A stretch of 64,000 nt of DNA from Acidobacteriaceae bacterium. Lineage in GTDB: Bacteria; Acidobacteriota; Terriglobia; Terriglobales; Acidobacteriaceae. The notes under the pieces were generated by a model. It did not search any database, was not told where the DNA came from, and saw only the letters and a program-made list of their open reading frames with translations. The translations under genes and the position numbers were made by a program. Location: NCBI GenBank assembly GCA_025352065.1, contig JANXUC010000164.1:1-64000 (forward strand), given 5' to 3'. Positions 1,948 through 44,463 of the stretch are shown here, piece after piece (position 1 is the stretch's first letter; each line of letters starts with the position of its first letter).

Positions 1948-2079
1948 GTCATTCTGAGAGCCTGTGACCTTTATTGTTTGTTCCAAAAACTAACGCTGAA
2001 AACAAACAACTTACGCGCCTAAAAACCGCGTAATTTGAATAAAGTCACAGCCTCTGAGCGCAGCGAAGAATCTCTTTAG
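1948..2079. repeat. Family A dispersed repeat, split copy
   Basis: The left half (TTGTCATTCTGAG, ending 1958) and right half (CTGAGCGCAGCGAAGAATCT, from 2054) together make a standard copy of this dispersed repeat. An unsplit version is visible on the opposite strand at 44438-44463. The two halves are separated by a 95-bp insertion listed separately. Confidence 0.7.
1959..2053. mobile_element. 95-bp MITE-like insertion
   Basis: The insert is bounded by imperfect inverted repeats: AGCCTGTGACCTTTATT at 1959-1975 and, reading inward from the right end at 2053, AGGCTGTGACTTTATT. It is flanked by a direct duplication CTGAG (1954-1958 and 2054-2058). Removing the insert and one CTGAG restores an intact dispersed repeat. 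It has no coding capacity; an internal hairpin TTACGCG/CGCGTAA lies at 2011-2017 and 2027-2033. The structure fits a miniature inverted-repeat element moved by an unseen transposase. Confidence 0.6.
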
Positions 2080-44375: not shown

Positions 44376-44463
44376 CGTGATTCAGAGCGCAGCGGAAGAA
44401 TCCTTTGGAACGCCAACAATCTTTACAACGATAGGGATTTTCGCTGCGCTCAGAATGACAATA
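44376..44463. repeat. Two family A copies in opposite orientation
   Basis: TTCAGAGCGCAGCGGAAGAATC (44380s) is partial and direct; TTTTCGCTGCGCTCAGAAT GACAAT (to 44463) is complete and inverted. The second is the uninterrupted version of the repeat that is split by the MITE at 1959-2053. Confidence 0.66.

Follow-up and report, generated by a model that had tools for sequence, protein, structure and literature searches.

What placed a 95-bp insert with inverted ends inside a dispersed repeat, and whether the repeat was struck by chance, are the questions raised by one locus in a 64,000-nucleotide stretch of Acidobacteriaceae DNA (contig JANXUC010000164.1, positions 1 to 64,000; the window). The insert is a miniature inverted-repeat transposable element (MITE), very probably moved in trans by the IS1182-family transposase of an insertion sequence (IS) of approximately 1.54 kb that is found in the same genome and targets the same repeat. 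The repeat, which resembles repetitive extragenic palindromes (REPs), is a fixed target entered by MITE and IS at one nucleotide position and not a chance victim, a point missed by the initial annotation of the window.

The element and its target repeat

The initial annotation described a 95-bp insert at 1959–2053 with a CTGAG duplication and imperfect terminal inverted repeats (TIRs) of 16–17 bp. Its coordinates were confirmed (Table 1), as were the termini (AGCCTGTGAC(C)TTTATT and AATAAAGTCACAGCCT), the bracketed base being an extra C in the left end of the window copy. The insert splits the repeat into GTCATTCTGAG^CGCAGCGAAGAATC (the caret marks the insertion point), and the right side beyond the insert can also be written CTGAGCGCAGCGAAGAATC. 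When the window was searched with sequence model R1, the element was the sole match, and its single strand folded better than 200 of 200 dinucleotide shuffles (z = −6.3).

Further copies were found by searching the whole assembly of the source genome (G000; 4.25 Mb, 183 contigs). The family of the window element (family A) has 11 complete copies, the window copy counted, and two partial copies at contig ends, which may be the two pieces of a single copy broken in assembly; a sister family has three copies at 82–84% identity. Nine of the 11 complete copies are identical over 94 bp, the exceptions being the window copy and the one on contig C56, and this near-identity suggests recent spread. The copies are separate insertions, since the 13 bp bordering the left repeat arm on its outer side show no relationship from one copy to the next (at most 8 of 13 identical). 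The element has these features of a MITE: TIRs, a length too short for a transposase gene, many near-identical copies at unrelated loci, and ends common to an autonomous IS.

Every MITE copy in this genome with a readable flank sits at one fixed point of one repeat, GTCAT(T/G)C(T/C)GAG. The target consensus is roughly GTCAT(T/G)C(T/C)GAG^CG(C/T)AGCGA(A/G)G(A/C)ATC, also written GTCATTCYGAG^CGCAGCGARGAATC, and orientation relative to it is fixed in family A (11/11), differing between lineages. CTGAG alone is not the target, as the window holds 99 CTGAG sites, two of them preceded by GTCATN, and 23 C(T/C)GAGCG sites; the placement therefore far exceeds chance expectation. Genome-wide, 77 intact empty repeats were counted at ≤3 mismatches (seven perfect and 70 with 1–3 mismatches), and a reversed-pattern control gave 0. 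With some 77 empty copies beside about 20 filled ones in one genome, roughly one-fifth of the target sites would be occupied, and the earlier description of a filled and an empty copy in the window as a rare before-and-after comparison was too strong. The empty copy itself, previously placed at 44438–44463, does exist, but on the minus strand and with the span given in Table 1. It was recovered with a 25-base form of the repeat or with looser matching; the full 26-base repeat, scanned across the window at ≤3 mismatches, gave no match.

The repeat is dispersed, has many copies and forms inverted pairs that fold as a hairpin, as is expected of REPs and of REP doublets forming hairpins (REPINs). 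About 12 inverted pairs, with the repeats approximately 57 bp apart, were found in the genome, giving a REPIN-like unit of approximately 84 bp. Repeat positions 8 and 20 covary (36 T-A, 34 C-G, and 7 exceptions).

Among the sister-family copies, the one at L014 1500–1603 (G000:C109:14923–15026) is flanked on both sides by the GTCAT half (GTCATGCTGAG ... CTCGGAATGAC), a layout as if from recombination of inverted copies or from loss of the interior of a REP pair. Upstream of the window element, the open reading frame at 863–1924 ends 35 bp before the MITE start, in line with an intergenic site.

Table 1. Positions of the MITE, its flanks and the closest empty repeat in the window
Feature	Position	Strand	Basis or remark
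95-bp MITE, family A	1959..2053	+	model R1 match, 74.5 bits, E 5.5e-22
Left target-site duplication CTGAG	1954..1958	+	sequence
Right target-site duplication CTGAG	2054..2058	+	sequence
Left TIR AGCCTGTGACCTTTATT	1959..1975	+	one C more than in any other copy
Right TIR AGGCTGTGACTTTATT	2038..2053	-	sequence
Internal core TAACGCTGAAAACAAACAACTTACG	1991..2015	+	conserved in MITEs of other genera, absent from the IS
Left arm of split REP-like repeat, GTCATTCTGAG	1948..1958	+	sequence
Right arm of split REP-like repeat, CGCAGCGAAGAATC	2059..2072	+	sequence
Empty REP-like repeat copy, GTCATTCTGAGCGCAGCGAAAATCC	44435..44459	-	closest empty copy in the window; right arm shortened

The probable partner insertion sequence and its relatives

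Ten IS ends with MITE-like termini were found in the source genome (five left and five right), corresponding to at least five IS copies of approximately 1.54 kb. These ends, AGTCTGTGACTTTATTG and AGCCTGTGACTTTATTG, belong to locus L031 and to eight contig ends, and the outermost 16 bp or so (AGNCTGTGACTTTATT) are common to MITE and IS. The complete copy (L031:1093–2635) carries an intact gene for a 462-aa transposase, which was assigned to the IS1182 family by NF033551 (310.6 bits, cut-off 270) and has the Pfam domains DUF772 and DDE_Tnp_1. At nine of the ten ends, the IS adjoins the repeat exactly where the MITE does, with all right ends facing GTCATTC. This IS, which matches the MITE in ends and target and retains an intact IS1182-family gene, is the likely source of the partner transposase; together with the near-identical MITE copies, it bears out the annotation's suggestion that a transposase has been acting on this family of DNA. 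The left flanks of the four IS copies at L047, L048, L049, and L031 all lie in a repeat variant with an AAAAATC arm (TTTTTCGCTACGCTCAG) that is rare among empty copies, possibly a finer difference in target preference between IS and MITE.

When 398 genomes of the bacterial family were searched with a sequence model of the MITE, it was detected in 15, which represent 11 of 79 genera. Its form is steady across genera, at approximately 94 bp (93–98 bp, one of 109), with 16-bp TIRs and a conserved core, CGATGCTGAAAACAAANNNCTTA, that is absent from the IS. Among 53 MITE flanks, 36 were of the GTCAY type, six of the CCTGCC type and two had GTCATTC on the other side (together 44); of the nine others, six were diverged copies in a single genome (G139). 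IS relatives, as copies or ends, were found in G292, G118, G137, G273, and G354, with the same termini, CTGAG sites and 68–73% transposase identity; two of their transposases scored above the NF033551 cut-off (319.7 and 305.6 bits), and a TIGR03435 protein adjoins one of the relatives, which, like the overall gene content, would fit an origin in Acidobacteriota. No intact transposase was found outside the source genome in a protein search of 60 relatives (E ≤ 1e-60), and such genes were found in the wider sample of 397 genomes. A transposase scan of named genomes gave distant relatives only (38–47% identity), mostly from Planctomycetota.

In G292, MITEs of two subfamilies (L180, L193, L195, L198, and L200) lie in one longer repeat, ACAGTTGACGTACCCTGATGTCATC-CTGAG-CGAGGGAGGGCTCCCGCGCGC, and this genome thus has a repeated landing site of its own. 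In the source genome, the third base of the ends seemed to vary with the side of the repeat that it faces, a pattern that failed in other genera.

Movement of the element and choice of its site

The DDE transposase of the IS would act in trans on the MITE, pairing both element ends and joining them to a staggered 5-bp cut around CYGAG. Gap repair would then produce the 5-bp duplication and leave both repeat arms in place. The target would be one arm of the REPIN-like inverted pair, and such recurring non-coding palindromes may serve as low-cost landing sites. The copies, the ends, the duplications, the target, and the intact transposase gene are read directly from the assembled DNA.

Exact 5-bp duplications flank 37 of 53 MITEs (14 genomes), and ten more differ at one base. 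The CTGAG copies are nearly invariant at both ends, as they would be if they were part of an element integrating site-specifically without duplication. However, four elements have matched variants on both sides, CCGAG/CCGAG (L009 and L197), CGGAG/CGGAG (L190), and CTCAG/CTCAG (L203), so the duplication comes from the target, and it is highly improbable that CTGAG belongs to the element. Copying of the MITE between repeats by way of their arms, through gene conversion or homologous recombination, is also very unlikely. All copies do share the same short arms, and the few mismatched duplications could be obtained by recombination between copies, as argued for ISRm22 (PMC1525189), but the arms measure no more than about 11 and 20 bp, and the IS with the same ends has the same target. 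Conversion also predicts differing arm subtypes at a locus, which were seen at 0 of 12 loci tested: in the 11 family A copies and one sister copy, the separated arms are matched in subtype (T-A and G-C; T-A and C-G), and each locus has therefore kept its own repeat. The matched arms and the variant duplications count against both of these explanations.

Least probable of all, to the point of being scarcely credible, is that the element is itself a REPIN mobilised by a REP-associated tyrosine transposase (RAYT, Y1 type). The source genome has seven Y1_Tnp matches (L101–L107), and the target repeats form REPIN-like pairs, but the element ends match those of the IS1182-family IS, and 5-bp duplications are made. 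None of the seven Y1_Tnp genes has a target-type repeat within about 1.5 kb (≤6 mismatches), and no RAYT gene flanked by the repeat was found in the source genome. More weight, though still well short of an even chance, is given to a transposase that is guided, like that of IS1272, by the secondary structure of the REPIN hairpin and not by sequence (GTCATTCTGAGCG), the site being conserved because REPs are the commonest hairpins. Within the IS1182 family, IS1272 inserts at hairpins whose sequences are little conserved (PMC4923244, PMC5678879), and an 84-base inverted pair folds far beyond its shuffles (z = −12.2). The MITE at L190, which has CGGAG duplicated, lies next to CGGAG..CTCCG at a site that is not a REP. 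On the other hand, insertion is at one base position, in a conserved GTCAYC-CTGAG-CGNAG context across genera and in several repeat types, and a single REP folds no better than its shuffles. Replacement of a hairpin without duplication, as by IS1272, was not observed: both arms remain and CYGAG is duplicated. Such replacement is reported from some IS1182-family members and is not known to be a defining trait of the family.

Several observations weigh against movement of the MITE by this IS into a sequence-defined target. MITE and IS share only their ends of approximately 16 bp, and the interior of the MITE does not come from the IS of this genome; several MITE-bearing genomes had no intact transposase at the search thresholds used. 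The IS left end at L051 (118–138, G000:C29) matches the target over CTGAGCGC only and then diverges, possibly as an off-target or decayed site, and the sister copy at L014 has the same repeat half on both flanks. In 16 of 53 cases, the two copies of the duplication differ, mostly at one base; the mismatches could stem from later mutation or from recombination between copies, and some may be assembly effects. The assembly is fragmented, with IS copies ending contigs. Movement itself was not observed, and the relatives sampled included no species of the same genus that might show the locus without the insert.

Tentatively, the MITE may be an old lineage whose conserved core is functional, for example as an enhancer binding the transposase or a host protein, with the MITE-IS pair having come to rely on REPIN palindromes for places to land. 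Although we consider this doubtful, it would amount to parasitism at two levels, one mobile repeat being the habitat of another.

Relation to known systems

The literature search found nothing on IS1182-family MITEs in REPs and nothing quoting the repeat; most subscription journals and ISfinder lay outside it. Compared with other bacterial MITEs (reviewed in PMC10969869), the element is alike in its length, TIRs common to an autonomous IS, target duplication and many copies, and differs in targeting confined to a REP-like repeat and in a cross-genus core not carried by the IS. The target is alike to REPINs (PMC3116915) in being an inverted REP pair of approximately 84 bp, but here the pair is the landing site and not the mobile element studied, and no adjoining RAYT was found.

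REP-targeting ISs (ISPsy8, ISPa11, ISPpu9/10, ISRm22, and ISRm19) belong to the IS3, IS110, and IS4 families, with looser cases in IS256 and IS5 (Tobes and Pareja 2006, PMC1525189). In the type 1 association of that study, all copies of an IS lie at one REP position; this is what was found here, except for the L051 end, and imperfect duplications are likewise known from ISRm22. The difference lies in the families, as the elements here are an IS1182-family IS and its MITE. Safe landing in REPs is thus known from other bacteria and is newly seen with the IS1182 family, a lineage of which joins the small set of transposons using REPs in this way. The best-studied member of the family, IS1272, deletes the hairpin that it targets, leaves no duplication and follows no consensus in primary sequence (PMC5678879, PMC4923244). 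IS1272 and TnSha1 have the transposase family and palindromic targets in common with the element described here, whereas the present lineage is a variant that duplicates 5 bp, deletes nothing and keeps to a strict sequence target. This contrast suggests more than one target mode within one transposase family, and the filled and empty sites available in a single genome make the question of sequence versus structure directly testable.
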